Source: an uncultured Sphingomonas sp.
GTDB lineage: Bacteria; Pseudomonadota; Alphaproteobacteria; Sphingomonadales; Sphingomonadaceae
Assembly (NCBI RefSeq): GCF_937871615.1
Contig: NZ_CALMPA010000017.1
Location: forward strand, 1 to 64,000
DNA length: 64,000 nucleotides
Direction: 5' to 3'
Shown here: piece by piece, positions 41,350 to 59,619 of the stretch
How positions within the stretch are numbered: position 1 is the first letter of the stretch
Layout of the letters: every line of letters begins with the position of its first letter
The notes under the pieces: generated by a model
Told to the model about the DNA's origin: nothing
What the model saw: only the letters and a program-made list of their open reading frames with translations
The model's database searches: none
Made by a program: the position numbers and the translations under genes

Positions 41350-41371
41350 TTTGATATAGAAATAGGACAAT
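41350..41371. promoter_or_regulatory. Palindromic operator, site A (caiB / HMGL divergent promoter)
   Basis: TTTGATATA, spacer GAAA, then TAGGACAAT: 13 of 16 fixed positions match the consensus half-sites TTTGnTATA and TATAnCAAA. It lies 19 bases before the HMGL-lyase ATG and 50 bases before the CoA-transferase ATG, so it could control both directions. Confidence 0.65.
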
Positions 41372-41389
41372 AAGGCAAGCAGAGGTTTG

Positions 41390-42346
41390 ATGACACCCGA
41401 GATATTGGTCAGCGAGGTCGGCCCGCGCGACGGCCTGCAAAGCATCAAGAGCATCCTGCCCACGAACGTCAAAAAGGCATGGATCGCAGCCGAGGCGGCG
41501 GCTGGCGTGCGGGAGATCGAAGTGGGCAGCTTCGTTCCCGCCAAACTGCTCCCGCAGCTCGCCGATACTGCCGAAATCGTCGCTTACGCCAAGACCATTC
41601 CGGGGCTGACCGTGGCAGTTCTCGTGCCCAATCTGCGCGGCGCCGAGGCGGCGATCGCCGCGGGCGCGGACAAGCTCACCCTGCCGCTGTCGGTTTCCGA
41701 AACGCACAGCCTCGCCAATCTGCGCCGCACCCATGCGCAGGTGATCGACGAGGCGCGCGCCATCGCCGCGCTGGTCGCCGCGCAGCCGACGGGCAAGCGT
41801 CCGCATTTCGAGGGCAGCCTTTCGACCGTATTCGGTTGCACGCTGGAAGGCGCGATCCCGCTGCCGCAAATCCTCGGTCTCGCGGAACAACTGATGGAAG
41901 CGGGCTGCGACGAGGTCGGGCTTTCGGACACCACCGGCTATGCCGATCCGAAAGCGGTGAAAGATATGGTGCGCGCGGTGCGCCACACGATTGGCGACAA
42001 AGCGCTCACCGGCATTCATCTGCACAACACACGTGGGCTTGGCCTCGCCAATGTGCTCGCCGCGTTGGAAATGGGGCTGGAGACGGTCGATTCCTCGCTG
42101 GGCGGCATCGGCGGCTGCCCTTTCGCGCCAGGCGCGAGCGGCAATATCGTGACCGAAGATCTGGTCTTCATGCTTCAGACGATGGGGCTGAAAACCGGCA
42201 TCGACCTTCCCAAGCTACTGGAAGTCCGCAAGATCATCGCCGCCGCGCTGCCCGGCGAGCCGCTTTACGGCTTCACTCCCGATGCCGGGCTGCCGCTCGG
42301 TTTCGTTCCTGAATCTCGGTCAAATTCCATGGAGACTGCGGCATGA
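41390..42346 (+). CDS. HMG-CoA lyase-like acyl-CoA lyase
   Basis: A 318-residue TIM-barrel lyase of the HMGL family. It starts MTPEILVSEVGPRDGLQSIKS with the metal/base motif EVGPRDGLQ, has KLTLPLSVSETHSLANL, GLSDTTGYADPKAV, the metal-binding HLHNTRGLGLANV and the catalytic Cys loop LGGIGGCPFAPGASGN. HMGL splits 3-hydroxy-3-methylglutaryl-CoA or related hydroxyacyl-CoAs into acetyl-CoA and a keto acid. As first gene of a four-gene operon, divergent from the CoA-transferase, it probably ends the lower pathway. TTG at 41387 is not used as start. Confidence 0.9.
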   Translation: MTPEILVSEVGPRDGLQSIKSILPTNVKKAWIAAEAAAGVREIEVGSFVPAKLLPQLADTAEIVAYAKTIPGLTVAVLVPNLRGAEAAIAAGADKLTLPLSVSETHSLANLRRTHAQVIDEARAIAALVAAQPTGKRPHFEGSLSTVFGCTLEGAIPLPQILGLAEQLMEAGCDEVGLSDTTGYADPKAVKDMVRAVRHTIGDKALTGIHLHNTRGLGLANVLAALEMGLETVDSSLGGIGGCPFAPGASGNIVTEDLVFMLQTMGLKTGIDLPKLLEVRKIIAAALPGEPLYGFTPDAGLPLGFVPESRSNSMETAA

Positions 42347-43023
42347 CGATCGGCACCAAGATGATCCGGGAGGAGAAAACCGCCCGCCAGATATTTGAAG
42401 AGGTGATGGCCAACCCCGCGCGGACGAAGTTTGGCTTCGGCGAACGGCTGGCGATCGTGAACGTCGATTTCCAGAATGCCTATACCCGGATCGACGAATT
42501 CAAGACCGCCTATGAAACCGATCCGCGCCAGATCGAATATGCCAACACCATCTCCCGTCTTGCCCGCGAAAAGGGGATGCCGGTCATCTGGACGCATGTG
42601 GCGTACATGAAGGATGCAAGCGACGCCGGCGTGTGGGGAACGCGAACGGATACGCCGGATTCGCTCCAGAACATCAAATATGATTCGCGCCGCCACCAGT
42701 TCGACGATCGCTGCGAGATCGATCACGAGCGCGACGCGATCTACACCAAGCGAATGCCTTCCGCCTTTTTTGAAACGCCGCTGCAAAGCCTGCTGGTGTG
42801 GCACAAGGTCGATACCGTCGTGGTGACGGGCGGCTCGACCTCCGGCTGCATCCGCGCGACGGCGGTGGACAGCCTCAGCCGAGGCTATCGCACCATCGTC
42901 CCGATCGAGACCTGCGCAGACAAGCACGAAAGCTATCACTTCGCCAATCTGACCGACCTTCAGCTCAAATATGCCGATGTCGAGCCGGTGCAGTCGGTAA
43001 TCGACTGGCTGGAGGCACGCTGA
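42343..43023 (+). CDS. Isochorismatase-like cysteine hydrolase (amidohydrolase)
   Basis: A 226-residue protein with the Asp-Lys-Cys triad of the family: Asp42 in IVNVDFQNAYTR, Lys136 in AIYTKRMPSAFF and Cys169 in GGSTSGCIRATAVDSLS. The N-terminal extension and the YTKRMPSAFF and ETCADK segments are closest to N-carbamoylsarcosine amidohydrolase and maleamate amidohydrolase. It should therefore hydrolyse an amide, for example a half-amide of a diacid. It overlaps the lyase gene by four bases and the following gene by one. Confidence 0.88.
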   Translation: MTIGTKMIREEKTARQIFEEVMANPARTKFGFGERLAIVNVDFQNAYTRIDEFKTAYETDPRQIEYANTISRLAREKGMPVIWTHVAYMKDASDAGVWGTRTDTPDSLQNIKYDSRRHQFDDRCEIDHERDAIYTKRMPSAFFETPLQSLLVWHKVDTVVVTGGSTSGCIRATAVDSLSRGYRTIVPIETCADKHESYHFANLTDLQLKYADVEPVQSVIDWLEAR

Positions 43024-43949
43024 TGCGCGAGGGCGAGAAAGATCCCGGCCTCTATGATTTCCGGCCCTATCGCGATCGCGAGAAGCTGGAATGGCCGGAA
43101 GGCAAGAAGGTCGCGGTGTGGGTGTCCCCCAATCTCGAATATTATGAGATCGACCCTCCGGCCAATCCGCACCGCAAGAGCTGGACGAAGCCGCATCCGG
43201 ATGTGCTGGGCTATGGTCACCGCGATTATGCCAACCGTATCGGTCATTGGCGGATGGCCGAGGTGATGGAAAAACACGGGTTCAAGGGATCGGTGTCGCT
43301 CTCGGTCGCGCTGTGCCAGCACCACCCCGATGTCGTCGCCAATGCGAATGAACTCGGCTGGGAGTTCTTCAGCCACGGCATTTACAATACACGCTACAGC
43401 TACGGCATGGATGAGGCGCAGGAGCGCGCCATCATCGAGGATTCGATCAGGACGGTCCGTGAAGCATCCGGCCAGACGATCAAGGGCTGGCTCGCACCGG
43501 CGCTGACGCACACGCCACGCACCCTCGATCTGATCGCCGAATATGGCATGACCTATACCTGCGATCTCTATCATGACGATCAGCCGGGGCCGGTGCATGT
43601 GAAGCAGGGGCGCCTCGTGTCGATGCCATACAGCATCGAGGTGAACGACCATTATGGTTTCTTCGTCTATAATATGAGCCCGCGCGAATATGCCGACACG
43701 CTGATCCGGCAATATGAGCGACTGGCGGCGGAGGGCGAGAACTCCGGTACGGTGATGTGCATTCCGCTGCACAGCTATCTGATCGGTCAGCCGCATCGCA
43801 TCGGCCCGTTCGAGGAAGTGCTGCGCCACATCGCCGCCGATGGCCGCGCGTGGATCACCCGATCGGGCGATATCGCCGATCATTTCCTCGGCAACGGCTA
43901 TGACGCCGCAGTCGCCGATGCAGCCCGTTACGCAAAGGCATCAGCATGA
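43023..43949 (+). CDS. PuuE-like polysaccharide-deacetylase-fold hydrolase 1
   Basis: A 308-residue protein of the NodB/PuuE fold. The start has the WPEGKKVAVWVSPNLEYYEIDP segment, followed by YGHRDYANRIGHWRMAEVMEKHGFKGSVSLSVAL, the His motif NELGWEFFSHGIYNTRY and a late LHSYLIGQPHRIGPFEEVLRHI. These fit the PuuE type (allantoinase and cyclic imide hydrolases) rather than chitin deacetylases, because the first metal Asp is replaced. The ATG overlaps the preceding stop by one base. Amide or imide ring opening is a reasonable inference. Confidence 0.82.
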   Translation: MREGEKDPGLYDFRPYRDREKLEWPEGKKVAVWVSPNLEYYEIDPPANPHRKSWTKPHPDVLGYGHRDYANRIGHWRMAEVMEKHGFKGSVSLSVALCQHHPDVVANANELGWEFFSHGIYNTRYSYGMDEAQERAIIEDSIRTVREASGQTIKGWLAPALTHTPRTLDLIAEYGMTYTCDLYHDDQPGPVHVKQGRLVSMPYSIEVNDHYGFFVYNMSPREYADTLIRQYERLAAEGENSGTVMCIPLHSYLIGQPHRIGPFEEVLRHIAADGRAWITRSGDIADHFLGNGYDAAVADAARYAKASA

Positions 43950-44875
43950 CGCTCGACCCCGCTTATCTGGAATATCCGCGCCGCCGCGAGGGGATGGATC
44001 ACGACCTCTACGCCCCCTCGCCCATGCCCTCGCGCAAGCCGGTCCACTGGCCCGGCGGCAAGCAGGTCGCGGTGACGCTGCTCGTCAACCTCGAATGGTT
44101 TCCGATCACGCCGGACGACAAACCGTTCCGCGCGCCGGGCCATATGGTGACGCCCTATCCCGATTACCGTCACTATACCGCGCGCGAATATGGAACGCGG
44201 GTGGGCTTTTATCGCCTGCTCGACGCCTTCGCCAAGGCCGGGGTGAAAGCAACGATCGCGGTGAATTCAGTAATCGCGGAGCGTTATCCCTCGATCATCG
44301 CCGACATACTGAGCGGCGGGCATGAGATCATCGCCCATTCGACCGACATGAACGGCACGATCGCCGGCGGCATCTCCGAAGAAGAGGAACGCGCGCTGAT
44401 CGCCGCGGCGCGCGATACGCTGGCGAAGGCGATGGGCGCGGCGCCACGCGGCTGGCAATCAATCGCCCGCTCGCAGAGCTTCAACACGCCCCGCCTGCTG
44501 GTCGAGGCGGGCTTTGATTTCATGTGCGACTGGGTGAACGACGATCTCCCTTATATCGCGTCAACGGAAGCCGGCCCGATCGTCAGCGTACCATTCAACC
44601 ACGAACTGTCCGATCGGCAGATGATCGCCGTGCAGCAACAGTCGATGGACAGCGTAGCCCAGCAGATCGAAGACGCGCTTGCATGGCTGACGGCGGAAGC
44701 GGCGCAATATGGCGCGGGCCGCGTACTGCCCTTCACATTGACGCCTTATATCACCGGCCTGCCCTATCGCATGGACGCGTTCGAGACGCTGCTTGGCCGA
44801 CTGGCGACGGACGACGCAATCTGGTTTGCCACCGCGAGCGAACTGGTGGATTGCTGGCGCCCGCAAGCCGCCTGA
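43946..44875 (+). CDS. PuuE-like polysaccharide-deacetylase-fold hydrolase 2
   Basis: A 309-residue relative of the preceding gene product: WPGGKQVAVTLLVNLEWFPITP, ARE-YGTRVGFYRLLDAFAKAG, the His motif GGHEIIAHSTDMNG and a final LPFTLTPYITGLPYRMDAFETLL. The two differ strongly in the active-site region (SHGIYNTRY against AHSTDMNGT), so they are unlikely to have the same substrate; they may act as two subunits or in two steps. It ends the plus-strand operon, overlapping its neighbour by ATGA, and is followed by a strong terminator. Confidence 0.82.
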   Translation: MTLDPAYLEYPRRREGMDHDLYAPSPMPSRKPVHWPGGKQVAVTLLVNLEWFPITPDDKPFRAPGHMVTPYPDYRHYTAREYGTRVGFYRLLDAFAKAGVKATIAVNSVIAERYPSIIADILSGGHEIIAHSTDMNGTIAGGISEEEERALIAAARDTLAKAMGAAPRGWQSIARSQSFNTPRLLVEAGFDFMCDWVNDDLPYIASTEAGPIVSVPFNHELSDRQMIAVQQQSMDSVAQQIEDALAWLTAEAAQYGAGRVLPFTLTPYITGLPYRMDAFETLLGRLATDDAIWFATASELVDCWRPQAA

Positions 44876-44959: not shown

Positions 44960-45286
44960 TCAGGAGGTTAACGCCTCCGCTTGATCGCGCGGGTCGAGAA
45001 AGATGCGCAGCGCGCGCATCAGCAGCGCATCCATCGCCTCGCGACGTTCCTGCGCGGGGTCTCCATCATAAGCGATATCGCGCAACGCCGACACAGGTTC
45101 ACCACGCAGGTCAGCGACCAGCCGCTCCAGCCGATCGATCCGGTCGTTCGATACCGACAATTCGATCAGCAGCGCCAGCGCGATATTGAGCACATCCTCC
45201 GCTTCCCCGCAGCCAAGACTTTTGGGGCGATTACCGCGCGCGGAATGAATAAGCGCGGTCAGCGCCTCCGTACTAGTCGTCGTCAT
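44960..45286 (-). CDS. Small helical protein, related to the one at 51.7 kb
   Basis: A 108-residue protein with a helical middle (VLNIALALLIELSVSNDRIDRLERLVADLRG) and a C-terminal helix (MDALLMRALRIFLDPRDQ). I recognise no named family. It resembles the 98-residue product encoded at 51695: both have a LxEL/F...DRxDxLERL block and end with a (M/I)RxxRxxxDP motif. Its ATG overlaps the stop of the methyltransferase-like gene (ATGA), so it may be a partner of that enzyme. Confidence 0.65.
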   Translation of the reverse strand: MTTTSTEALTALIHSARGNRPKSLGCGEAEDVLNIALALLIELSVSNDRIDRLERLVADLRGEPVSALRDIAYDGDPAQERREAMDALLMRALRIFLDPRDQAEALTS

Positions 45287-46413
45287 GCAGGCTTCCTTGC
45301 ACTGATCGCGTACCAGCGATTGCCGGCGAACCCCTGCAACGCGGCGAGATCATGTTCGACGATCTCCTCGGCGGCAAAGCCCGCGGCAAGCATGTCGGCA
45401 CGCAGATCGGCGGTGGCATAGGTGTTCCAGTGCACCTCGCCGTTGAAATGAGTATCCCAATCCCGCTCGACCTGATGGACGATGCTGGGCTGGTTGCGGA
45501 TTGCGACATCCTGATGAATCACGATGCCGCCGGGGCGGACAAGGCGGCGCGCTTCACGCATCATCGCACGGCGCTTTCCCTCGCCGATTTCGTGCATGAC
45601 GTTGTGGGAGACGACCAGATCGAAGCTGGCGTCGGCGAAGCCCATCTCAGCCGCGTCCATCTGATGAAAATGGACTCCGACGCCTAGTGATTCCGCACGC
45701 GCATGAGCATAACGCAGCATCGCGGCGCCGATATCGACCGCGTGCACCTCAGCATCGGGATCATGCGCGGCATAAGCAGCGGACGCCGCGCCGGCCGAGC
45801 AGCCGATATCCAATATGCGCTTCGGTCGGAAACCGTCGAAATGCTCGTCGAGCAGTTTGAGGACCACGCCCGCCTTGCTGTCGCCGCGACCGATCCCCTG
45901 CCCGAAGGAAAAGACATTACCGCCACATTCATACAGCGCACCCGCGATCACATCGTCGTCGCCCTTATCCATCGCATAGCCGCCCGGCTGGAGATGGATA
46001 TCGACCGCGGCAACCTCCGTCGACGGATCATAAGCCGGATCGAGATTGAGGCTGCCCTTGCGATCGGGCGCGTTCATCAGCGTCCGCGTTGCATCACGCA
46101 TACGATCGAGATCGCGGTAGATCGGCTCACCGACCGAGACCCAGATCATCTCCTGCGCCGCGCGATTGGCAGCGCTCCAGCGGCGGTAGCTCGGCGACAT
46201 CAGGAAAGCGCGCTGAACCTCATCCGGCGATTGCGGTGCGCGACCGTGCTTTTCGACGAACGCGGGCTTGGCCTCTGCCGCGAAGGCCTCGACATTGCGC
46301 GGGCGGACGTGCGCGTTGAGCAAGCGGCGCAGACCGACTACGGCTTCCTGCCGGCTGCGTTGCTCCGTGCTGGTTTCGGGCAGCAAGGCATGCTGCAAAT
46401 CGCGAACCTTCAT
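45283..46413 (-). CDS. SAM-dependent methyltransferase-like protein 1 with extra N-terminal domain
   Basis: A 376-residue protein. The C-terminal half is a class I Rossmann methyltransferase domain: motif I ILDIGCSAGAASAAYA, VHAVDIGAAML, MDAAEMGFADASFDLVVSHNVMHEI and RLVRPGGIVIHQD. The N-terminal 170 residues form a separate helical region with SLNLDPAYDPSTEVAAVDIHLQPGGY just before the Rossmann part. A second protein of the same design is encoded at 58.3 kb. AGGAGAG precedes ATG 46413. An operator-like site lies 64 bases upstream. Substrate unknown. Confidence 0.8.
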   Translation of the reverse strand: MKVRDLQHALLPETSTEQRSRQEAVVGLRRLLNAHVRPRNVEAFAAEAKPAFVEKHGRAPQSPDEVQRAFLMSPSYRRWSAANRAAQEMIWVSVGEPIYRDLDRMRDATRTLMNAPDRKGSLNLDPAYDPSTEVAAVDIHLQPGGYAMDKGDDDVIAGALYECGGNVFSFGQGIGRGDSKAGVVLKLLDEHFDGFRPKRILDIGCSAGAASAAYAAHDPDAEVHAVDIGAAMLRYAHARAESLGVGVHFHQMDAAEMGFADASFDLVVSHNVMHEIGEGKRRAMMREARRLVRPGGIVIHQDVAIRNQPSIVHQVERDWDTHFNGEVHWNTYATADLRADMLAAGFAAEEIVEHDLAALQGFAGNRWYAISARKPA

Positions 46414-46476: not shown

Positions 46477-46498
46477 TTTGACCTATCATTGATACAAA
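46477..46498. promoter_or_regulatory. Palindromic operator, site B (methyltransferase-like 1)
   Basis: TTTGACCTA, spacer TCAT, then TGATACAAA: the outer TTTG and CAAA are perfect, total 11 of 16 fixed consensus positions. It lies 64 bases before the methyltransferase ATG, directly at the end of the VOC gene. Confidence 0.5.
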
Positions 46499-47431
46499 TC
46501 AACCGGCCTCGATCAGTTCGAGTAATTCACCGGCTGGCCCGACGATCGTGCATGTCCGCCGACCGTTGTAGATCGCTTCCGCGCGCGATGCCGGCGGCGC
46601 GATCGAAAGCCCGGCGACGGAATCCAGGCTCTCGACCTCGAGCGTGACCAGCGCATTGCCCGGCGGCAGCCGCGACGGATCACCGGGCCGCACGCCGGCG
46701 ACCATATCCGGCCCGACCGGATAGCCATCGAGTTCGATCAGATTGCCGCGCTGCCGCATACCGATCGCGCTCAATTCGATCGCATGATCGGCGGCGAGCC
46801 CCTGCGCGTGCTGAATGATATCAACCTTGCTCTGCCGCACAGGCCGTTCACGCAGCGAAAAGCGATCGACGTACCAACGCAGCATCGCGTTGAAATCGGG
46901 ACCGGCGCAGACGACGATGAAGGTCCGCCCGATCGGGCCGCTCGGCGGCGGCAGGATCGACGTCTCACGATCGCCGGTTTCCGTCGTGAAGTAGAGACAC
47001 TCCCCACCCGGCCCGACAACCTGCATCGCGATGATCGAAGGCATGAACTGCAAGGGCTTGGGCGGTCCGATGATCTTGAACGGCGAATCCGCGAGCCGCT
47101 CGGCTAGCGCGTACACATCATCGACGATGATCTCGAAGGCGGTCCAGCCGAAGGAAGTAAGCGGACGATAGCCGGGGACGGGCGGCGCCTCGACAAGGCG
47201 AACATATGTATCCGTCTCACCCGTCGCCTGCATGACAACATAGCGTGCGCCCGCGCTATCGCCCCGCCCCCAGCTTGCCGCCAATCCGGCGTCAAGCGTG
47301 CCGCTTTCCAGCGCGCGATAGTCGAAATAGTCAGCGTAACAGGCAAGCGCGCGATCGAGTTGCGGCACCGTCGCGGTGGTGGCGACGATCCGCAGCAGCT
47401 GTGGATCGGTAAAGGTCGTCCAATCGCTCAT
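46499..47431 (-). CDS. VOC-superfamily protein
   Basis: A 310-residue protein built of two vicinal-oxygen-chelate modules: RIVATTATVPQLDRALACYADYFDY to ECLYFTTETGD, then RTFIVVCAGPDFNAMLRWYVDRFSL to GELLELIEAG. The family includes extradiol dioxygenases, glyoxalases and epimerases. I cannot pick out the two His and one Glu of an extradiol dioxygenase, so a non-oxygenase role is more likely. The second ATG (47431) is chosen because GGAGG lies eight bases before it; the first (47437) would sit directly on that site. Confidence 0.75.
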   Translation of the reverse strand: MSDWTTFTDPQLLRIVATTATVPQLDRALACYADYFDYRALESGTLDAGLAASWGRGDSAGARYVVMQATGETDTYVRLVEAPPVPGYRPLTSFGWTAFEIIVDDVYALAERLADSPFKIIGPPKPLQFMPSIIAMQVVGPGGECLYFTTETGDRETSILPPPSGPIGRTFIVVCAGPDFNAMLRWYVDRFSLRERPVRQSKVDIIQHAQGLAADHAIELSAIGMRQRGNLIELDGYPVGPDMVAGVRPGDPSRLPPGNALVTLEVESLDSVAGLSIAPPASRAEAIYNGRRTCTIVGPAGELLELIEAG

Positions 47432-47482: not shown

Positions 47483-47504
47483 TTTGTTATATCTCTATAT
47501 CAAA
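47483..47504. promoter_or_regulatory. Palindromic operator, site C (VOC gene)
   Basis: TTTGTTATA, spacer TCTC, then TATATCAAA: a complete match to both half-sites (16 of 16). It lies 52 bases before the VOC ATG and 11 bases behind the regulator stop. It is the best copy of the element and defines the consensus. Confidence 0.75.
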
Positions 47505-47514
47505 TAATCGGCCA

Positions 47515-48291
47515 TCACAGCAGTTGCGACGCCGAGGCTGGAGAATTGAGATCAAGGCGGATCTGATAGCGATCGGGCCGGTATTGGGCGAGAATATGCT
47601 GCACCGGCACCCCATTGGTATCGAGCACGGTACGGCTGACCCGCAGGATCGGAGAACCAATATCCACCTGAAGCACCGCCGACAGCGCGGCATCGGCCAG
47701 TGTGGCGGAGATCGTCTGCCTGGCCGCGCCGATATGCACGCCTGCTTCCTCCAGCAGCGCCAGCATCGGGGTGGATTTCAGCTTGGCCCGCGTCATCTTC
47801 GCGCCGAGGGCTGCGGGAATGTAGCTGACGAAATGCCCAACAGGCAGGCCGTCCATCCCGCGCATACGAACGACGCGCAGCACCTCGCTGTTCACGGGAA
47901 CCTCAAGCGCCTCGTCGATCGGCGGCCGCGCGGCCACCGTTTCGACCTCCAGCAGTTCCACCTTGGTCGCGCGGCCAAAGGTGAGCAGCGAGTCGAGCGC
48001 CTGTTCGATATTTCCCTGAATCGGCTTTGCGGGCGAACGGAACACCACGGTGGTGCCGACACGGCGCTTACGCTCGACCAGATGATTGTCGGCCAGTTCG
48101 TCCAGCGCGCGGCGCGCCGTAATGCGCGATACGCCGAACTGGGCGGAAACCTCCTGCTCGGTCGGCATTCGCGAACCGAAAGCCCGCTCACCGCTGGTAA
48201 TTTCCTCGCGCAATTGCAGGAATATCTGATGATAGAGCGGCACCGCCTGGCCGCGCGCCACCGCGACAACTTCGTCGGTTTCACGTCGCAA
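47515..48291 (-). CDS. GntR-family regulator, HutC subfamily
   Basis: A 258-residue regulator with an N-terminal GntR winged helix (PLYHQIFLQLREEITSG, RMPTEQEVSAQFGVSRITARRALDELADN) and a C-terminal UTRA ligand domain (RPPIDEALEVPVNSEVLRVVRMR, LRVSRTVLDTNGVPVQHILAQYRPDRYQI). The start is TTG at 48291 with GAGGAGAG six bases before it; the frame remains open to 48393 but that would overlap the divergent gene. It is the only regulator in the block and the probable reader of the palindromic operators. Confidence 0.88.
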   Translation of the reverse strand: MRRETDEVVAVARGQAVPLYHQIFLQLREEITSGERAFGSRMPTEQEVSAQFGVSRITARRALDELADNHLVERKRRVGTTVVFRSPAKPIQGNIEQALDSLLTFGRATKVELLEVETVAARPPIDEALEVPVNSEVLRVVRMRGMDGLPVGHFVSYIPAALGAKMTRAKLKSTPMLALLEEAGVHIGAARQTISATLADAALSAVLQVDIGSPILRVSRTVLDTNGVPVQHILAQYRPDRYQIRLDLNSPASASQLL

Positions 48292-48392
48292 GAAAAACTC
48301 TCCTCGAAATTCGTATGCGGCTCGGTCCGCAATTGCGCCGCCACGCGGTGAGCTTTCCAAACGCGCTTCGCAACAAGAAAGGTTCTGTTTCA

Positions 48393-48806
48393 ATGGTGCT
48401 CAAGCCATTTATCGATAGCAATGACGCCCGCCAATTGATTGACGCCGCCATTTCCGCCGCCACGAAAGAAGGCCTGGCAATGACCATCGCCGTAACCGAC
48501 GCGGCCGGATTTCCCTTTGCGCTCCAGCGAATGGATGGCGCCGGGTTGCTCACCGCGGATGTCGCGTTGCGCAAGGCACGCACGGCAGCGCTCCTCCGCG
48601 CACCAAGCCGGGCGCTGGCTGAACGCGTGCCAGCCGATCCCGCGTTGCTCGCGCTGACCGAATATCTGCCGATGGCGGGCGGCCTGCCGATCAAGACCAG
48701 CGATGGAATTGTCGCAGGCGCGATCGGCGTATCGGGCGGCACGGCGGAGCAGGACGAATATATCGGCGCAGCGGCATTGGCCGCGCTGGACGCCACCCAC
48801 AGTTGA
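48393..48806 (+). CDS. GlcG/HbpS-like protein
   Basis: A 137-residue protein of the haem-degrading-domain family: LIDAAISAATKEGLAMTIAVTDAAGFPFALQRMDGA, then ALRKARTAALLRAPS, and a glycine-rich MAGGLPIKTSDGIVAGAIGVSGG end. Members include GlcG, HbpS and small proteins in diol and heterocycle pathways; function is generally unknown. It is divergent from the regulator gene, with 101 bases between them and no copy of the palindromic element. ATG 48393 follows AAGAAAGG. Confidence 0.8.
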   Translation: MVLKPFIDSNDARQLIDAAISAATKEGLAMTIAVTDAAGFPFALQRMDGAGLLTADVALRKARTAALLRAPSRALAERVPADPALLALTEYLPMAGGLPIKTSDGIVAGAIGVSGGTAEQDEYIGAAALAALDATHS

Positions 48807-48852: not shown

Positions 48853-49704
48853 TCAATGCATTTCCTCACCGCCCGACACGTTCATCGCTTCGCCGGTGAT
48901 ATAACGGGCCTGCCCGGAACACAGGAAAGCGCAAGCATTGGCGGTGTCGCCCGGATCGCCGACCCGCCCGAGCGGGATACGCCCGCGCATCGCCGCCATA
49001 TACTCGTCCAGCGTCTGCCCGCGCGCCTTCGCCATATAATCGTTCTGCCAGCTTCCCAGCCCGGTCGTGACGTGATTGGGGCAGACCGCGTTGACGGTGA
49101 TCTCCTGCGGCCCAAGCTCGATCGCGGCGGAGCGCGTGAGGCCGACCAGCCCGTGCTTCGAGGCGATATAGGAGGAGGTCAGCGCCGAACCGGATTTCGA
49201 TCCCCGGCTGCCGATCGAGACCACGCGGCCACGCCCCCAGCCCGGCTGCACCTCCTGCTTCAACATCTGCCGCACCGCATATTTGGTCGCGAAGAAAGCG
49301 CCCCGCAGGTTCACGTTCATCACCGTGTCCCACATCTCCTGCGTCGCGTCGACCAATGGCCCAAAGAGATAGCCGACCCCCGCATTGTTGACGAGGATAT
49401 CGAGCTTGCCGAACCGCTCCACCGCATAGGCGACCAGCGCTTCTACCTGCGCTTCCTCACGCATGTCGGCCTGGAAGGTGGCAACGTCGGGATTGATCCG
49501 GCGCAGATCATCCGCGACCGCCGCCATCTCCTCGGTCGAGCCGACGCCGTGCGCGGGCGCCATATTGCCCTCCACCCTGCCGAGATCGTGGATCACCAGT
49601 TTCACCCCGTCCTCGGCCAGCTTGCGGGCGATCGCCTCGCCCAACCCCTTACGACGGCCCGCCCCCGTGACGATCGCCACTTTGCCTTCCAGATCGGGAT
49701 ACAT
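48853..49704 (-). CDS. SDR-family oxidoreductase
   Basis: A 283-residue short-chain dehydrogenase: KVAIVTGAGRRKGLGEAIA at the N-terminus, NNAGVGYLFG, catalytic Ser in SIGSRGSKSGSALTSSYIASKHG with the YxxxK pair, then NAVCPNHVTTGLG. The insert between the first two glycines (RRKG) and the VIHDLGRVEG loop are not those of FabG. It is 11 bases downstream of the OYE-like gene and the last gene of that unit. Oxidation of an alcohol or reduction of a ketone intermediate is likely. Confidence 0.87.
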   Translation of the reverse strand: MYPDLEGKVAIVTGAGRRKGLGEAIARKLAEDGVKLVIHDLGRVEGNMAPAHGVGSTEEMAAVADDLRRINPDVATFQADMREEAQVEALVAYAVERFGKLDILVNNAGVGYLFGPLVDATQEMWDTVMNVNLRGAFFATKYAVRQMLKQEVQPGWGRGRVVSIGSRGSKSGSALTSSYIASKHGLVGLTRSAAIELGPQEITVNAVCPNHVTTGLGSWQNDYMAKARGQTLDEYMAAMRGRIPLGRVGDPGDTANACAFLCSGQARYITGEAMNVSGGEEMH

Positions 49705-49715
49705 GACCACTACTC

Positions 49716-51991: not shown

Positions 51992-52007
51992 CGCCGTTCG
52001 CCTCCGC

Positions 52008-52050
52008 AAAAGAAGCAGGGCGGGAGAGCCAATCAGCTCCCCCACCCTGC
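52008..52050 (-). terminator. Hairpin terminator behind the TonB receptor gene
   Basis: On the minus strand, GCAGGGTGGGGGAG and CTCCCGCCCTGC pair (one internal mismatch zone) and are followed by TTCTTTTG. It lies 18 bases behind the receptor stop, before the small-protein/OYE/SDR unit, which may therefore depend on read-through. Confidence 0.65.
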
Positions 52051-52067
52051 CAAGCTACATCATATGC

Positions 52068-54377
52068 TTAGAAGTTATAGCGCGCCCGGGCCATCCACGT
52101 GCCGGGATTGTTGAGATACGGATAGATCAGGAACGACGTCTTATAGGTGGAGTCGAAGCAATTGCTGCATTCCACGCCAAACGACCATCCGCTGTCAGAC
52201 CCGAGTGTCAGCCCCGCGTTGACCAGGCTATGCGCCGGCTGGAAGCCAGCCTTGTCGTTCGAGGTCGCGACCCAGGTGCCACTGATATAATTCCAGTTCG
52301 CGCTCGGTTGCAGCGAATAGCCGCCGCCGAGATCGAAGCTGTAGCTACCGCCGAGCGTCGAGGTGAAGCGCGGCGCACGGGTCGGCTCAGCGACGCCGCC
52401 AGCCGGCGTGACGATGCCGGTGTTGCAGTTATTCGCATAAGTACCACCAAGGCAGCGCGCGATCTGATCCTTCGTCGCCTGATTGAGATTCGTATAGCGT
52501 GCGTGTTGCAGGCCGAAATTCCAGAACAGATTCAGGCTGCGAACCGGGTTGAAGCTGATTTCGCCTTCAAGTCCGTAATTCTCCATATCCGCCACGTTAC
52601 GCGTCAGATAGGTGATCGTGTTGGTGAGCAGATTATAGCCGCCACCCGGAAGCTGCGCCTCATAATCCATGAAATAGAAGCCGGTAAGGTTGATCTTGAC
52701 CTTGCGATCGAAGAACTCAGACCGGATACCACCTTCATAGGACCAGATCGTTTCCTTGGTGAAGGCCGCCGCGCCCACTGCGTAATAGGCACGCGAGTTC
52801 CAGCCGCCGGACTTGAAGCCCTTGGTCACCGATCCGAACACCATCACATCGGGCGTGATCTTGTAGTTGAGCGCGAAACGCGGCGTCCACACTTTCGATC
52901 GCAGTTCCACCGGAATGCCGGCGTTGAGCACATCCTGCGTATTGAATGGCTGATTGATCGCCGAGGAGCGCGCAAGCGGGCTGGCGTTCGGCGTATATGC
53001 GATCGTCTTGTCTTCGTCCGTATAACGGATACCGGCCGTGAAGGTCAGTTGCGGCGCCAGATGCACGTCGCCCTGGAAATAACCCGCATAGGCCTCGGTA
53101 TTGTTGCGCATAACACGATCGCCGCTCACCGTTGCCGCGCCAGCAAGCGGAACCGAGATATTGGCAAAATTCGTCCAGTTACGCTCGTTGACGTAATAGA
53201 AACCACCGACATAGCTCAGAATATCGTTGAACGCCTTGCCAGTTACCTTGATTTCCTGGCTGAACTGCTTGCTCCAGCTATCGTTCACGAGCGGCGTGGA
53301 GGTGCCGCGCGCGCCGGAGATGAAGTTCACGCCGTCAAACACTACGCTCGCGCTGCTCAGCCCGGCGAAGCTGTCGGTCATGTATTTCTGGCGCATGTAC
53401 GAATAGCCAGTGATGAAGTTGAGCGCCGCATCGTCGCCGACATCGACCTGGATGTTCGAACTGAACAGCGCCGAACGAGCGACGTTGCCCGCCGGGATAT
53501 CGGCCAGACCGGGCGAGACAAGCCCCGTGCCGAGCCCCTTGTTGCTGAGCAGCGGCGTGAAGCTGATCCGGTCGCCGGTTTTAGCGTCACGGAAATTGGG
53601 CAGGTTCGCAACCGAGGAATAGGTGTAGCTCGCCGCCAGATCCCAGGTCACCGTATCGGACGGAAGCGCCCGCAGCGCGCCGCGCACGCCCCAGCTCTTT
53701 TCGCCGTTGAGCTTCTGGCCGGTTACCCGATTGTCCACATACCCGTCAGAGCGAATATAATAGCCGGAGAGCTTGGTCAGCAGCTTCTCACTTACCGGCA
53801 AATCGATCGAAGCGCGGAGCTGCGCACGATTATAGCGACCGTAGCTCGCATCGGCGAAGCCGGTGATATGGTCACTTGGCTTGCGCAGGATGACGTTGAT
53901 CGCGCCACCCGTGGTGTTACGGCCAAACAGCGTGCCCTGCGGCCCACGAAGCACCTCGACCCGCTCGATATCGAAGAACGAGAAATTGTTGGCGCCCTGA
54001 CGGGCGATATAGATATCGTCGACATAAGTGCCAACCGGCGGATCGAAGGTGGAAATAGATTCCGTATTGGCAAGGCCACGCAGCGAATAGGTGTTGGCGG
54101 TGCCAAGCGCGGTGTTGTTATGCCCGATCAGGTTCGGCACATAGTTTACCAGATCAAGCGTATTGTTGATCTGACGCACCTTCATGTCGTCACTGGTGAT
54201 CGCGCTGACCGCGAGCGGCACGTCTTGGAGGCGCTCGGCGCGGCGCTGTGCGGTGACGACAATATCCGCATCGGCATCACTGGCGCCCGCCGGCTCAGCC
54301 GTCTGCGCGAATGCCGACGTGCCTGAGAGCAGGATCGCTCCGATGAAGAATCCGAATTTGGGCGAATTGAGAAGCAT
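52068..54377 (-). CDS. TonB-dependent outer-membrane receptor
   Basis: A 769-residue receptor. The signal peptide ends at SAFAQ, the TonB-box-like start is ADIVVTAQRRAERLQDVPLAVSAI, and the plug contains YSLRGLANTES and RVEVLRGPQGTLFGRNTTGGAINV. The C-terminus WMARARYNF ends in Phe as outer-membrane proteins do. This is the type abundant in sphingomonads for uptake of organic compounds. ATG 54377 is used: GGGAG lies six bases before it. An operator copy lies 85 bases upstream, which links it to the pathway as probable substrate importer. Confidence 0.93.
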   Translation of the reverse strand: MLLNSPKFGFFIGAILLSGTSAFAQTAEPAGASDADADIVVTAQRRAERLQDVPLAVSAITSDDMKVRQINNTLDLVNYVPNLIGHNNTALGTANTYSLRGLANTESISTFDPPVGTYVDDIYIARQGANNFSFFDIERVEVLRGPQGTLFGRNTTGGAINVILRKPSDHITGFADASYGRYNRAQLRASIDLPVSEKLLTKLSGYYIRSDGYVDNRVTGQKLNGEKSWGVRGALRALPSDTVTWDLAASYTYSSVANLPNFRDAKTGDRISFTPLLSNKGLGTGLVSPGLADIPAGNVARSALFSSNIQVDVGDDAALNFITGYSYMRQKYMTDSFAGLSSASVVFDGVNFISGARGTSTPLVNDSWSKQFSQEIKVTGKAFNDILSYVGGFYYVNERNWTNFANISVPLAGAATVSGDRVMRNNTEAYAGYFQGDVHLAPQLTFTAGIRYTDEDKTIAYTPNASPLARSSAINQPFNTQDVLNAGIPVELRSKVWTPRFALNYKITPDVMVFGSVTKGFKSGGWNSRAYYAVGAAAFTKETIWSYEGGIRSEFFDRKVKINLTGFYFMDYEAQLPGGGYNLLTNTITYLTRNVADMENYGLEGEISFNPVRSLNLFWNFGLQHARYTNLNQATKDQIARCLGGTYANNCNTGIVTPAGGVAEPTRAPRFTSTLGGSYSFDLGGGYSLQPSANWNYISGTWVATSNDKAGFQPAHSLVNAGLTLGSDSGWSFGVECSNCFDSTYKTSFLIYPYLNNPGTWMARARYNF

Positions 54378-54461
54378 GACCATCTCCCTGAAACCTGATT
54401 TTGGCGCGAGGCCTGAGCCGCTACGCGGAACAAACAACGGCTCCGTCCCGCAGCACCGTTA

Positions 54462-54483
54462 TTTGTCATATTACTATATCAAT
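54462..54483. promoter_or_regulatory. Palindromic operator, site D (TonB receptor)
   Basis: TTTGTCATA, spacer TTAC, then TATATCAAT: 14 of 16 fixed positions match. It lies 85 bases before the receptor ATG and 34 bases before the end of the alpha/beta-hydrolase-fold gene. Confidence 0.65.
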
Positions 54484-54516: not shown

Positions 54517-55335
54517 TCAACCAACTGCCTTCATTGCGAACTCCAATATCGGCTCGATCCATTCATCCGTCCGGTCCAGCACCATCCCCGGCCCGCCGGG
54601 CAGTTCCGCATAGCTCCAGTCCGGTCGCGCGGTGCGCAGCCGCCCACCCGATGGAAACAACGGATCGGTGCGGCTCGCCAGGATCAGCGTCGGGCAGGAT
54701 ATGCGCGGCACGTCGCGCTCGAAATCATGAAGCGGGATGACCGAATGGCCGTGCTCCTTCCACGGGCCGTGCATGAAATAGGTGGCGACAGAGACATGGA
54801 CGGTCTCGTCGCTCCAATCCGGATCACCGACCCGGCGCACCCATGCCCAGCGATCGGTGAAGTGGCTGCCATCCGGTGCAATTTGCTGATTGTCCGGGAA
54901 GCGACCGATGCGCTCCGCCCGCTCGGCGGCGGAAAGATACGGCGCATTGTCCAGCACCAGTCCCACTACCAGCGCGGGCCGCTCCGCCGCGATATGCCCC
55001 GCCGCCAGCCCGCCGCCGCGATGACCAATCAGCAGGCAAGGACCGAGCGACAGCCCGTCGATCAGCGCGCCGATCGCAGCGGCATAGGCGTTGATCCCCG
55101 GCCTTGCCGGCGGATCGGACATACCGTGCGCGGGCAGGTCGAGCGCGATTGCGCGATAGCCCGCGCGTGCAAGCATCGGCAGTGCATGGCGAAACTGGAT
55201 CGACGCCCATGGCGCCTGATGAATCAGAACCACGGGTGGCCCGTCTCCATGGCTGCGATAGTGCAATTGCCCGTCCGGCCCATCGACATAGCCGCGCCGC
55301 TCACCCGGCAGAGCGGTAAGGATCGGCAGCGTCAT
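54517..55335 (-). CDS. Alpha/beta-hydrolase-fold protein lacking the catalytic Ser and His
   Basis: A 272-residue protein with a clear alpha/beta-hydrolase core: LHYRSHGDGPPVVLIHQAP, RAIALDLPAHGMSDPPAR, and TLILASRTDPLFP with the acid Asp. The nucleophile elbow reads LIGHRGGGLAAGH, so position 106 is Arg where Ser, Cys or Asp is expected. The region where the catalytic His should be reads LPGGPGMVLDRTDEW and has no His, and the usual HG of the oxyanion loop is HQ. It overlaps the flavoprotein gene by ATGA. I recall related uncharacterised proteins with GHHTG at the elbow. Confidence 0.82.
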   Translation of the reverse strand: MTLPILTALPGERRGYVDGPDGQLHYRSHGDGPPVVLIHQAPWASIQFRHALPMLARAGYRAIALDLPAHGMSDPPARPGINAYAAAIGALIDGLSLGPCLLIGHRGGGLAAGHIAAERPALVVGLVLDNAPYLSAAERAERIGRFPDNQQIAPDGSHFTDRWAWVRRVGDPDWSDETVHVSVATYFMHGPWKEHGHSVIPLHDFERDVPRISCPTLILASRTDPLFPSGGRLRTARPDWSYAELPGGPGMVLDRTDEWIEPILEFAMKAVG

Positions 55336-56798
55336 CGGCCAAGCTCCAGCGGGATGAGGTGATCGCCCAGCAACCGGCCAAAGGTCATTGCCGGTGTGAC
55401 CATCATGCCCCCGCAAGCCGCCTTGCCCATGGTCTGACTCGAACCGAGTATCTCTCCGGCGGCATAGAGGTTGGCGATCGGCGAACCATCACGCCGGATC
55501 ACGCGCAATTCATCATCCACCGCCAGCCCGATCGAACTCGAAATCGAACTCGCCTGCATACGGATCGCGTGGAACGGCCCCTCCGCGATCGGCAGCGGAT
55601 GATGCGTCCGCCCGAAGAAGTCCTTCCCGGTCTGAACACCGTAATTGAACCCCTCAACCGATTTGAGCAGGCCATCCGCGTCGATCCCCGCCTTGTCCGC
55701 CAGCGCGGTCAGGCTGTCCGCCGTCAGGAATGCCGGGCCGCCTTCATCGACAGCGGCGCGGACCTGTTCGCGCGTCCAGCCCTGCACGATGGGCGGCGCT
55801 TCCGTCAGGATGCGGTGATCGAAGATGATCCAGTAACGCTGATCGGGTTGCTGGAACAACGCCATCTCGCGCGCATCGACGCTGTCGATATCCTCGCGGA
55901 CGAAACGCCGGCCGGCGGCGTTGACATAGATTTCCCACGGCTGTCGCCGCTCAGGGAAATGCTCGATCCGGCCGACGGGTTTCGCCGGGAAATTATTGGT
56001 GTTGAACAGCGTGCCGAAGTTGCAGAACAGATTTTCCACCCCGCGCGCAAAGCCGCCAACTGCCTCACCCAGCGCCAGCCCCGCGCCACGCGAGAACGGC
56101 CACGGCGAGGCGTTATATTGCGGCATCCCGTTACGCGCGGCGAACTCCTCGGGATTGCCGGCATAGCCACCGCATGTCAGCAGCACAGCCTGCACGGCGA
56201 TATCGCGCACTTTCCCATCCGGGCTGCGCACCGACGCACCAATGACAGCGCCCGTATCATCGGTCGTCAGCGCCGTGACAGCGTGACTGAGCAACACAGT
56301 CACCGCTCCATCGCGCTCCAGTTGCTCCACGATCGGGACCAACACGTTCTTGATCGTGATGCCGCCCTCGCTCCCCCAATAGTAACGCGGCAGGCGATAC
56401 GGCTCATGGCCGAAACCCGTCACGGGATGCTCCGGCAACGGCTCGAACCCCTCGTCCATCAGCCAGTCGAAGGTCGCGGCAGCATGGTCTACCGCGCGGC
56501 GCACCAGCCCCGGATTGGCGGTGCCGCGACTGATCCGCATCACATCCTCGAAATGCAGGTCCGGCGTATCGTCGATGTCCCGCTCGCGCTGGAGCCGGGT
56601 TCCCGCAGCGCTCATCTGCCCTGTCGCGACCCATAACGATCCGCCAAGTTTGTCGGCGTGCTCGACCAGCAACACCCGCGCGCCGCGCCGCGCCGCGAAA
56701 ATGGCCGCCGGCAGCCCCGCAGACCCACCGCCCACGATGAGAAGATCCCATCGCTGACAGGAGTCGGCTCCTTCTCGAATCACCGGCGCTGAACTCAC
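55332..56798 (-). CDS. FAD-dependent oxidoreductase, fumarate-reductase/ketosteroid-dehydrogenase type
   Basis: A 488-residue flavoprotein: WDLLIVGGGSAGLPAAIFAARRGARVLLVE at the N-terminus, KLGGSLWVATGQMS, and a C-terminal LYAAGEILGSSQTMGKAACGGMMVTPAMTFGRLLG for FAD binding. The layout matches the fumarate reductase/3-oxosteroid dehydrogenase superfamily, whose members introduce or reduce a C=C bond next to a carbonyl. The gene is first of a two-gene unit with the alpha/beta-fold protein, and an operator copy lies 37 bases upstream. GGAGAGT stands before the start. Confidence 0.88.
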   Translation of the reverse strand: MSSAPVIREGADSCQRWDLLIVGGGSAGLPAAIFAARRGARVLLVEHADKLGGSLWVATGQMSAAGTRLQRERDIDDTPDLHFEDVMRISRGTANPGLVRRAVDHAAATFDWLMDEGFEPLPEHPVTGFGHEPYRLPRYYWGSEGGITIKNVLVPIVEQLERDGAVTVLLSHAVTALTTDDTGAVIGASVRSPDGKVRDIAVQAVLLTCGGYAGNPEEFAARNGMPQYNASPWPFSRGAGLALGEAVGGFARGVENLFCNFGTLFNTNNFPAKPVGRIEHFPERRQPWEIYVNAAGRRFVREDIDSVDAREMALFQQPDQRYWIIFDHRILTEAPPIVQGWTREQVRAAVDEGGPAFLTADSLTALADKAGIDADGLLKSVEGFNYGVQTGKDFFGRTHHPLPIAEGPFHAIRMQASSISSSIGLAVDDELRVIRRDGSPIANLYAAGEILGSSQTMGKAACGGMMVTPAMTFGRLLGDHLIPLELGR

Positions 56799-56834
56799 TT
56801 CACTCTCCCTTTCCGACCGCAGGGCGGCGGATCA

Positions 56835-56856
56835 AATGTTCTATTTATATATCAAA
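56835..56856. promoter_or_regulatory. Palindromic operator, site E (FAD oxidoreductase)
   Basis: AATGTTCTA, spacer TTTA, then TATATCAAA: 13 of 16 fixed positions match, with the right half perfect. It lies 37 bases before the flavoprotein ATG, in the gap behind the MFS gene. Confidence 0.6.
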
Positions 56857-56913
56857 TCATCTGCGACGGTCGAAATCAAGCATTCCGAACCGCCGCCCGC
56901 TCGAATATGGCGT

Positions 56914-58266
56914 TCACGCCGTTGCCGGCGCCGCGTTTCCGGTTACCGTCTCTGCCTGATCCTCGGCGATCAGATTGCCGGCCATATCCTGCGCCAGCGC
57001 GCGATAATGCTTGAGGCCCAGGCAGACAAACAACAGCGACGGAATACCGACCAACAAGACGAACCCGCTCAACGCGATCGAGATCGCCTTGGGTGTCCCC
57101 ATCCAGTCGGTCGCCGCGCCGATCAGCGGGGGGCCAAGCAGTGGGCCAATCAGCGTAATCACCGTATTGAAGATCGCGACCGAGCGGCTGCGCATCTCGC
57201 CCGGCGTAATCATCTGAAGCGCGGCCGGCCCACCGGCGGTGGCAACGGACTTGCCGATAAACGCGAGAAACATCGCAACCACCGCCATTTGTGCGGACGG
57301 CAGGATCGGATAGAGCGCGCTCATCGGCACGGTGATGAACAGCCCGAGGATGAGGACGCGCATCGCACCGTCCTCCTTTCCCTTACCCAGCGCCTTGCTG
57401 GCCCATAGCGCGATCGCCGTTCCGATCGGGCCGGCGGTGAAATAGAATAGGCCCGTCACCGCCCCGATTTCGCCGATGCTCCAGCCATGGACGCGCTGGA
57501 ACAACGGCACATTCCACAGCGTCAGCGTGCTCATCGCGAAATTGCAGGTGGCACCAAGCGTCAGCGCGCCGAAACCACGCCAGCGCTTGAGCATGTAGCG
57601 CACGGCGCTGGCCTGCGGGCCATCCTGCCGGCTCAATTTCTCCGTCCGCGCCGGCTCGCGCACCGTCAGCATCAATATGGCGAACAGCAGCCCTGGGATA
57701 CCGACGAAGAAAAAGGCAAGCTGCCAGGGCTCGAAATGCCCCATGCCGAACAATTCCATCGGCCCGGCGTCATGCAGCGTGGACACGAGATAGCCGCCGG
57801 CCAAAAACGCGAGGCCCGCCCCCAGATATGGCCCGGCCATATAGAGGCTGATCGCCCTGGCACGTTCCTTCCGACCGAAATAGTCGCTGATTATCGACAC
57901 CGAGCACGGGCTGACCACCGCCTCGCCCAGCCCAAGCCCGAAGCGGAAGAACAGCAGCGGCAGAAAGCTCATCGCAAAGCCGCTCATCGTCGTCATCATG
58001 CACCAGATGACGATGCCCGCGACCAGCAGCCATTTACGACTCGTCCTGTCCGCCATCACGCCCAGCGGGATCGTCACCAGCACATTGAAGATCGAAAAGG
58101 CCGGCCCCATCAGAAGACCGATTTGAAAATCGCTCAGGCCCATCGCCTTTTTGATCGGCTCGACCAGCAGCGACAGGATATACCTGTCAAAATAGGAAAG
58201 GACGAAGACCAGCAACAACAGGACGACGACATACCAACGGTATAATTCCCCCGTTCGCTTTTCCAC
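56914..58266 (-). CDS. MFS transporter (ACS/spinster-like)
   Basis: A 450-residue transporter with about 12 hydrophobic segments. The start YRWYVVVLLLLVFVLSYFDRYILSLLVEPIKKAMGLSD and the loop GVMADRTSRKWLLVAG, then GEAVVSPCSVSIISDYFGRKERARAIS, are typical of the MFS type that carries organic anions, sphingolipids or aromatic acids. It lies between the methyltransferase-like gene 2 (42 bases upstream) and the flavoprotein gene. Uptake of the pathway substrate across the inner membrane is the likely role. Confidence 0.88.
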   Translation of the reverse strand: MEKRTGELYRWYVVVLLLLVFVLSYFDRYILSLLVEPIKKAMGLSDFQIGLLMGPAFSIFNVLVTIPLGVMADRTSRKWLLVAGIVIWCMMTTMSGFAMSFLPLLFFRFGLGLGEAVVSPCSVSIISDYFGRKERARAISLYMAGPYLGAGLAFLAGGYLVSTLHDAGPMELFGMGHFEPWQLAFFFVGIPGLLFAILMLTVREPARTEKLSRQDGPQASAVRYMLKRWRGFGALTLGATCNFAMSTLTLWNVPLFQRVHGWSIGEIGAVTGLFYFTAGPIGTAIALWASKALGKGKEDGAMRVLILGLFITVPMSALYPILPSAQMAVVAMFLAFIGKSVATAGGPAALQMITPGEMRSRSVAIFNTVITLIGPLLGPPLIGAATDWMGTPKAISIALSGFVLLVGIPSLLFVCLGLKHYRALAQDMAGNLIAEDQAETVTGNAAPATA

Positions 58267-58307
58267 TGGCGTCCCTTTTCCCTGAAATGTCTGATTATTT
58301 GCGGATG

Positions 58308-59513
58308 TTATTGCGGCAGGCTGCTGCCGAAGACGTACCAGCCGCCCTTGCCGTGCCGTGGACGCCCCGGCTCATCCCAAGCGAAAGCCCCGTAACGGTC
58401 GGGATAGGTGTTCACGTCCGGCAGAATCTGCGCGAAGCTGCGCGCGCGGTCGAAACCGGCCTCAGCCATCAGCGCGATCGGATCCTGCGCGCGAAAAGCC
58501 GTATAGAACGGCTCATTGTTATTGTCGGTATCCCAGTTCCAGAAATAATCTTCCCAGGCATCGACCAGCCCGGTCGCGGGCAATTCCTGGTGCACCATCA
58601 GGCCGCCCGGTCGCAGCAGACGGCGACATTCCTTGAGGACGTTGCGCGTCGCCTTCACCGGGATTTCATGGAAGAAGAAGCTGGAGACGATCAGATCGAA
58701 ATGCCCGTCCGGAAAATCCAGCGACTCCGCATTCTGCTGGCTGAAATGGACCGGCACGCCCTCATGCTCCGCGATCGCATGGCCCCAGCGCAGCAGCGGC
58801 GCGCCGAGATCGACGCCATGCGCCTCAACGCCGGGAAACGCCTCTACATAAGGAACAAGATTCTTGCCGGAAGATGTGCCGATATCGAGAATCCGCAACG
58901 GGCGGAAATCGGGACGCTCATGCTTGATCCACCGGCTGATGACACGCGCCACACCACCCCAGCTCCGATAACTCATCGTCGCTGAAAACACGCGCGCGCC
59001 AAGGCTGACGACGGCGCCCTGCGCCACATCATCCTCAACCCACTCGTTATGAAAGCAACCCGGCGTCAGATGCACGTCCTGCGCGGTGAGATAGCGCGGC
59101 ATTTCCAGCGCCGGATCGAGGCGGAGCGATCCGCCCGCCGGGCTCCGCGCCGCAGCGTCCCGCGCAACGTCGATCATCTCCGGCAACGCGCGTTCGACGC
59201 TATCCTGCACTGACTGGAAACACATTTCCTGCGCGTTGTAACGCAGGGTGGAATAGAAGCGGTAGGACGCTTCCGGCTTCATCGCCTTTTCGATGGCAAG
59301 AGCGTTATCGAGCGCATCACCGCGCGCCTCGAAACGGGGTTTCACCCGCTCGTCGAAATCGCGCTTCACCATCTCCGGCATGTCTTGAATCGCATAGCGG
59401 CGGAGCGCGCTGCAAAAGCGCTGGCGCCCGCGCTCATCCAGTGTCGGTCGGGCGAGCGCCTCGATATCCGGGATCGCCGAGTTATGCCCGCTTTGCAGCG
59501 TATTCGCAGCCAT
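58308..59513 (-). CDS. SAM-dependent methyltransferase-like protein 2 with extra N-terminal domain
   Basis: A 401-residue protein, paralogue of the one at 45.3 kb. The Rossmann part has ILDIGTSSGKNLVPYVEAFPG, GVDLGAPLLRWGHA, FDLIVSSFFFHEI and LLRPGGLMVHQELP. The N-terminal 200 residues share a domain with the paralogue: both contain a YRxxS...AQEM block and a SLxLDPA...DxHLxPG block before the Rossmann fold. AGGAG lies eight bases before ATG 59513. It is divergent from the FAD monooxygenase operon, with an operator copy between them. Confidence 0.8.
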   Translation of the reverse strand: MAANTLQSGHNSAIPDIEALARPTLDERGRQRFCSALRRYAIQDMPEMVKRDFDERVKPRFEARGDALDNALAIEKAMKPEASYRFYSTLRYNAQEMCFQSVQDSVERALPEMIDVARDAAARSPAGGSLRLDPALEMPRYLTAQDVHLTPGCFHNEWVEDDVAQGAVVSLGARVFSATMSYRSWGGVARVISRWIKHERPDFRPLRILDIGTSSGKNLVPYVEAFPGVEAHGVDLGAPLLRWGHAIAEHEGVPVHFSQQNAESLDFPDGHFDLIVSSFFFHEIPVKATRNVLKECRRLLRPGGLMVHQELPATGLVDAWEDYFWNWDTDNNNEPFYTAFRAQDPIALMAEAGFDRARSFAQILPDVNTYPDRYGAFAWDEPGRPRHGKGGWYVFGSSLPQ

Positions 59514-59597
59514 CACCCAATCTCCTACCGGCATCCATGCCCACCGCGTCGTTTCCACCTTCACACCCACTGGACAAGAGGCGTTTACGACGGTTGA

Positions 59598-59619
59598 TTA
59601 GTCTTATATCTAGTACAAA
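59598..59619. promoter_or_regulatory. Palindromic operator, site F (methyltransferase-like 2 / FAD monooxygenase)
   Basis: TTAGTCTTA, spacer TATC, then TAGTACAAA: 11 of 16 fixed positions match. It lies 30 bases before the monooxygenase ATG and 85 bases before the methyltransferase-like ATG, in the divergent promoter. Confidence 0.5.

Follow-up and report, generated by a model that had tools for sequence, protein, structure and literature searches.

The first 64,000 nucleotides of contig NZ_CALMPA010000017.1 from an uncultured Sphingomonas sp. (hereafter the window) carry a catabolic gene block at 38.1–63.6 kb whose promoters share a 22-bp palindrome, WWTG-n-TATA-n4-TATA-n-CAWW. Comparative sequence evidence makes it probable that the HutC-type protein encoded in the block binds this palindrome and represses eight operons until a catabolite releases it. 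The element follows the HutC gene across genomes, not the catabolic genes, in support of HutC as the regulator. A large catabolic block found repeatedly in sphingomonads thereby gains a regulator–operator pair tested by comparison. Such a pair would allow the block to be treated as one inducible pathway, whose substrate could be found through whatever releases the regulator.

The palindrome occurs six times in the window, starting at 41350, 46477, 47483, 54462, 56835 and 59598, and these copies match 13, 11, 16, 14, 13 and 11 of 16 fixed positions, respectively. A first-pass annotation made from the letters of the window alone had listed the same six copies, and a recount returned its hand-counted matches unchanged. 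From the end of the element to the start codon chosen in our analysis we measured 18–84 nt, close to its 19–85 bases, and neither pattern nor matrix yields a comparable site in the first 38 kb, where it had seen none. The copy at 47483 lies 10 nt beyond the stop codon of the regulator gene. Because two sites sit between divergent genes, the six serve eight transcription units, about 22 genes by gene order. Every operon of the block is served except the regulator and the GlcG-like gene divergent from it; no conserved element was seen in the intergenic region between these two genes in aligned relatives, and the annotation had likewise found no copy there.

Within the window the six sites form a closed group. 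In leave-one-out matrix scoring, any site is outranked only by other members of the six, and with a matrix trained on all six the weakest site scores 24.6 bits and the best non-site 12.4 bits. A damped sequence-only model (R1), run genome-wide at E ≤ 10, finds four sites and misses those at 46477 and 59598; having found just four of six, it was replaced by the matrix and an exact degenerate pattern. The two missed sites rest on position and conservation and would not stand out alone in the genome.

A simpler explanation would make the elements AT-rich −10 promoter parts, alike by chance or through sigma-factor preference. They do overlap inferred −10 regions, and at up to three mismatches the 3.99-Mb genome contains four matches both to the element and to the same pattern written backward. 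What sets the element apart is thus not number but clustering and the sites with 0 and 2 mismatches. All four element matches lie in the catabolic block, within 15.5 kb, with 0, 2, 3 and 3 mismatches, whereas the backward matches all have three mismatches and fall on four different contigs. In the window the same threshold gives four element matches, against 0.01 expected from shuffles, and no backward match. Equal-scoring matches scattered through the genome, which the first-pass annotation had named as evidence against a regulon, did not appear: none lies outside the block at three mismatches or by R1. Conservation also speaks against this explanation. Forty-three distinct sites carry about 29 bits of information, and in the 86 rows that they give in both orientations A9 is invariant (86 of 86), while T3, G4 and T8 recur in 82–83 rows, G4 in 83 of 86. 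We regard mere promoter resemblance as very improbable and reject it because the presence of the element depends on HutC, as follows.

Among 298 genomes of the family, HutC homologues (threshold E ≤ 1e-45) occur in 17. The pattern WWTGNHMTANNNNTAKDNCAWW is present in 16 of these 17 genomes (41 sites) but in only 15 of the 281 genomes lacking HutC (17 sites; Fisher 4e-17, although related genomes share history and such values overstate independence, which weakens the case). The letters of the pattern come from block-type sites, though it was written after matches in further relatives were known. Its backward control gave 25 matches, counted by eye, in the same 281 genomes, about the rate of the element there. 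Ten of the 17 HutC homologues are 42–52% identical and lie among partly different genes; eight of the ten have sites inside the first-fetched 20 kb, one (G178) has sites 11–13 kb away, and one (G052) has none.

The catabolic genes on their own do not bring the element with them. The isochorismatase gene of the block occurs in 55 genomes, and the element is found in 16 of 16 that encode HutC and 3 of 39 that do not; each of these three has a single match, which does not lie within 300 kb of the gene. In 30 isochorismatase loci fetched of the 55, 15 of the 16 with HutC reach at least 17 bits and 0 of the 14 without HutC reach 1 bit, by a matrix partly trained on some of the same genomes. A matrix built from the six window sites gave, at 18 bits or more, 60 matches in 21 HutC-linked stretches (391 kb without overlap), representing 58 distinct positions, or 53 once shifted overlaps are merged; 100 column-permuted matrices gave at most 23 matches each in the same stretches. 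At the same threshold it gave no match in eleven control stretches, namely six HutC-less core clusters (119 kb), two stretches of a second core cluster in the window genome (40 kb) and three stretches around HutC homologues (G052, G178), the last three counting for nothing because two were already known to be site-free. Dyad discovery in several stretches, HutC-less ones included, returned GC-rich repeats and no alternative operator. The first-pass annotation had guessed from proximity that the HutC-type protein controls the sites, and the comparison across genomes supports that guess.

The sites also persist at the same promoters in relatives, a comparison that the annotation had proposed. 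Eleven named relatives were found via the methyltransferase-like gene MT1, two pairs of them near-identical (L038/L040 and L042/L043), and all have the block, with HutC, in unchanged order over the extent of each locus. Ten of the 11 carry the four core sites (CoA-transferase/lyase, MT1, glyoxalase and TonB); L048, whose locus shows no CoA-transferase or lyase gene, has two. Intergenic alignments keep the element while most flanking sequence is lost. The MT1 site is gone in L012, L013 and L048, where the glyoxalase–MT1 gap is about 12 bp, so that its loss coincides exactly with the absence of an MT1 promoter gap. In five further relatives that show these promoters, the FAD_binding_2 site reaches 18 bits in L083 and L085 but not in L077, L078 or L080, and the MT2/monooxygenase site does so in L083, L085 and, weakly at 20.0 bits, L080, but not in L077 or L078. 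A conserved operator thus stands at several operons beside the regulator gene, as in a local repressor regulon.

Sites upstream of the regulator gene itself appear in other lineages and supply the signal that the window lacks. In L068, L071 and L072 the element stands upstream of the HutC homologue. A class-level search of 384 other genomes turned up homologues in 20 (40–49% identity among the matches listed), and in 14 of the 19 loci fetched the best match, at 12 bits or more, was a sister element upstream of the regulator, mostly of the form AATGATATA-n4-TATATCATT; regulator starts here were estimated from alignment. Neighbours of these homologues are mostly different genes from those of the window block. 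As controls we used 22 glyoxalase-homologue loci from HutC-less genomes. With the sphingomonad matrix, one of the 22 scored at 12 bits and none at 19, where 12 of 19 class-level loci did, a result that none of 200 permuted matrices matched. The six-site matrix reached 12 bits in 14 of 19 class-level loci and 2 of 22 controls, a result equalled by 2 of 200 permuted matrices; it reached 19 bits in 11 of 19 and 0 of 22, equalled by none of the 200. The class-level loci (L132–L150) represent HutC homologues of other alphaproteobacterial families with AATG...CATT-type elements, and four of them have an aconitase-family match nearby (31–33% to the LeuC-like protein).

Besides the shared history of the genomes, several findings weigh against HutC as the protein that reads the element. 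In the window, no site precedes the regulator gene. Five of the 19 class-level loci lack a site of at least 12 bits, and where sites do lie upstream of the regulator they may belong to a divergent neighbour instead, or be shared with it. The 47% homologue of G052 has the same recognition helix but no site, by pattern in its genome and by matrix in two stretches; the helix alone therefore does not predict a site. Finally, the operator departs from the HutC-subfamily consensus, given in the available part of Suvorova et al. (2015, PMC4494728) as NyGTMTAKACNy, with GT and AC 4 nt apart and with FarR, NagQ and SdhR as exceptions. The window element has TA at −4/−3 and a conserved G at −8.

The unusual operator and the unmarked regulator gene would both make sense if a regulator encoded elsewhere bound the palindrome and HutC were a mere neighbour with a separate operator of its own. 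We consider this unlikely. The element and HutC co-occur, the same enzymes without HutC have no element nearby, and sister elements precede HutC homologues in other families, mostly beside different genes. The distribution of the canonical core GTMTAKAC also speaks against it: the window and the 19 class-level loci have no copy, and of 17 sphingomonad loci 5 have one each, never inside an element (three within the isochorismatase gene, one in L071 at a distance from HutC, and one in L069 some 70 nt past the HutC gene). Among the block proteins scanned, HutC alone showed a regulator domain, in keeping with the annotation's claim of a sole regulator; two small open reading frames (ORFs) matched nothing in Pfam.

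HutC itself is a two-domain protein. An N-terminal GntR winged helix (PF00392, 3.5e-19) and a C-terminal UTRA domain (PF07702, 4.8e-33), both above cut-off, place it in the GntR family, HutC subfamily. It scores 112.9 bits against TIGR02018, the HutC equivalog for the histidine repressor (cut-off 220 bits), and 113.1 bits against TIGR02325, the phosphonate repressor PhnF (cut-off 156.8 bits). An alignment of 25 sphingomonad sequences from its clade, G052 among them, shows no change in the recognition helix VSRITARR. Their wing is basic (RKRRVGT or similar), and the position that we take as Arg38 of NagR is Q, E, H or M.

Promoter layout suggests how HutC could act. In 13 of 15 lyase promoters compared, all but L129 and L130, the −35-like element CTCGACA stands 10–11 nt before the operator; by eye, this spacing places a −10-like hexamer (mostly TATAGA) inside the operator at 15–16 bp. 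TonB promoters show TTTACA, TGGACA/T or GTGACA-like hexamers whose distance varies more, and glyoxalase promoters no clear −35, again by eye. We propose that the HutC-type protein (47515–48294), probably as a dimer, binds the palindrome, and that the bound protein would cover the −10 region and repress the eight operons. Through its UTRA domain the protein would be expected to sense a small-molecule inducer, probably an intermediate of the pathway, whose binding would release the protein and switch on uptake and breakdown together.

The direction of control cannot be read from sequence, and HutC might bind these sites as an activator. Repression is nonetheless the natural reading because the sites, ending 18–84 nt before the starts and overlapping the inferred −10 region, would occlude RNA polymerase. 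NagR, a HutC-family member with a known DNA complex, is moreover a repressor that blocks transcription of catabolic genes from palindromic operators, according to the available part of Fillenberg et al. (2015, PMC4333415). Activation by HutC therefore seems improbable, and repression remains our preferred reading.

The operons under putative HutC control are listed in Table 1, with gene families assigned via Pfam and NCBIfam.

Table 1. Operators, regulator and putatively regulated operons in the window.
Feature	Coordinates	Strand	Evidence
Operator, between divergent CoA-transferase (−) and HMGL-like lyase (+)	41350..41371	.	pattern, matrix; same promoter in 10/11 named relatives
Weak operator, before methyltransferase-like MT1	46477..46498	.	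matrix, relatives
Best operator, before glyoxalase-fold gene	47483..47504	.	pattern, matrix, relatives
Operator, before TonB receptor operon	54462..54483	.	pattern, matrix, relatives
Operator, before FAD_binding_2 gene	56835..56856	.	pattern, matrix; some further relatives
Weak operator, between divergent MT2 (−) and FAD monooxygenase (+)	59598..59619	.	matrix; some further relatives
GntR/HutC-type regulator (GntR helix-turn-helix (HTH) and UTRA), probable TTG start near 48291	47515..48294	-	Pfam, HTH/wing alignment
GlcG/HbpS-like gene, divergent from regulator, without operator	48363..48806	+	PF03928 8.9e-33
Putative regulated operon: CoA-transferase III, LeuC-like, LeuD-like	38132..41300	-	operator 41350; gene order
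Putative regulated operon: HMGL-like lyase, isochorismatase-family hydrolase, two PuuE-like deacetylase-fold hydrolases	41390..44875	+	operator 41350
Putative regulated operon: MT1, 108-aa ORF	44960..46413	-	operator 46477
Putative regulated gene: glyoxalase/dioxygenase-fold protein	46499..47431	-	operator 47483
Putative regulated operon: TonB receptor, small ORF, OYE-type reductase, SDR	48853..54383	-	operator 54462
Putative regulated operon: FAD_binding_2 enzyme, alpha/beta hydrolase	54517..56798	-	operator 56835
Putative regulated operon: MT2, MFS transporter	56914..59513	-	operator 59598
Putative regulated operon: FAD monooxygenase, arylmalonate decarboxylase/EutA-like, aldehyde dehydrogenase, SnoaL-like	59649..63564	+	operator 59598

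A module made up of the LeuCD-like, CoA-transferase, HMGL-like lyase, isochorismatase-family and two PuuE-like genes (window 38132–44875) occurs with varying neighbours in the stretches fetched. Its isochorismatase is present in 55 of the 298 family genomes, and the module may represent a widespread pathway. The window genome (G000) has a second core cluster on contig C70, at about 111–136 kb (L116, L117), with identities of 83% for the isochorismatase, 77% and 69% for the PuuE-like proteins, 70% for the lyase and 66% for the LeuC-like protein; the GntR-type match there is a different one (27% to HutC), and the element does not occur at 14 bits or above. Matches to the PuuE-like gene in L076 (15241–16106) and to the LeuC-like gene in L047 (16189–17573; a metagenome-assembled genome) are split, which suggests frameshifts or assembly errors.

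The N-terminal 180–190 or so residues of both MT1 (45283–46413) and MT2 (58308–59513) have no Pfam match, and the glyoxalase-fold protein (46499–47431) gave neither an NCBIfam match nor a PDB relative at E 0.001. The OYE protein matches the bilirubin reductase and mycofactocin OYE models, both below cut-off, and the best PDB matches include PuuE allantoinase and N-carbamoylsarcosine amidohydrolase. We presume, speculatively, that PuuE-like, isochorismatase-type amidohydrolase, LeuCD-like hydratase, CoA-transferase and HMGL-like lyase proteins would suit a pathway in which a cyclic imide is opened to give a substituted maleate that is then cleaved; a literature search on cyclic-imide or citraconate catabolism returned nothing, and the searches supported no substrate.

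Among known systems, NagR (YvoA) and DasR, repressors of the GntR/HutC type whose structures are solved, have the same two domains as the window regulator, which differs from them in how DNA would be read. The available part of the NagR account (PMC4333415) describes contacts to G−5 and G−4 made by Arg38 and Arg48 in GTGGTCTAGACCAC. The window operator has TA at −4/−3 and its conserved G at −8. In the first turn of the helix the window regulator has Gln where DasR has Arg, a position that by our own reading is that of Arg38 in NagR; the Arg48-type Arg of VSR is kept. The histidine-utilisation repressor HutC belongs to the same subfamily, but the window regulator falls under the TIGR02018 cut-off and no hut genes were recognised among the block proteins scanned. 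No published account of this operator or regulon was found among the titles and abstract openings of the literature matches listed.

Other operators offer partial parallels, as far as the available part of Suvorova et al. (PMC4494728) describes them. SdhR, of the HutC subfamily, is likewise an exception, and its palindrome TCTTATGTCTTATATAAGACATAAGA has an AT-rich centre with G/C far out; compared by operator alone, its G stands at −7 by our count rather than −8, and the outer sequence differs. YtrA-subfamily operators also carry GT and AC boxes far from the centre, but YtrA proteins have short C-terminal domains, unlike the full UTRA domain here. On balance we favour a HutC-type clade across Alphaproteobacteria that left GT-N4-AC for the wide WWTG-n-TATA-n4-TATA-n-CAWW, in which G stands at ±8, and whose proteins have a basic wing and no longer make the Arg38-type contact. 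On so wide an operator, the DNA-binding domains would have to sit farther apart than in NagR or add outer contacts. The outer bases vary by lineage, mostly TTTG in sphingomonads and mostly AATG elsewhere, perhaps along with the change in the wing (RKRRVGT versus RERGRGT). A HutC-type clade whose operator lies off the published rule would provide a natural case of specificity change in the GntR winged helix.

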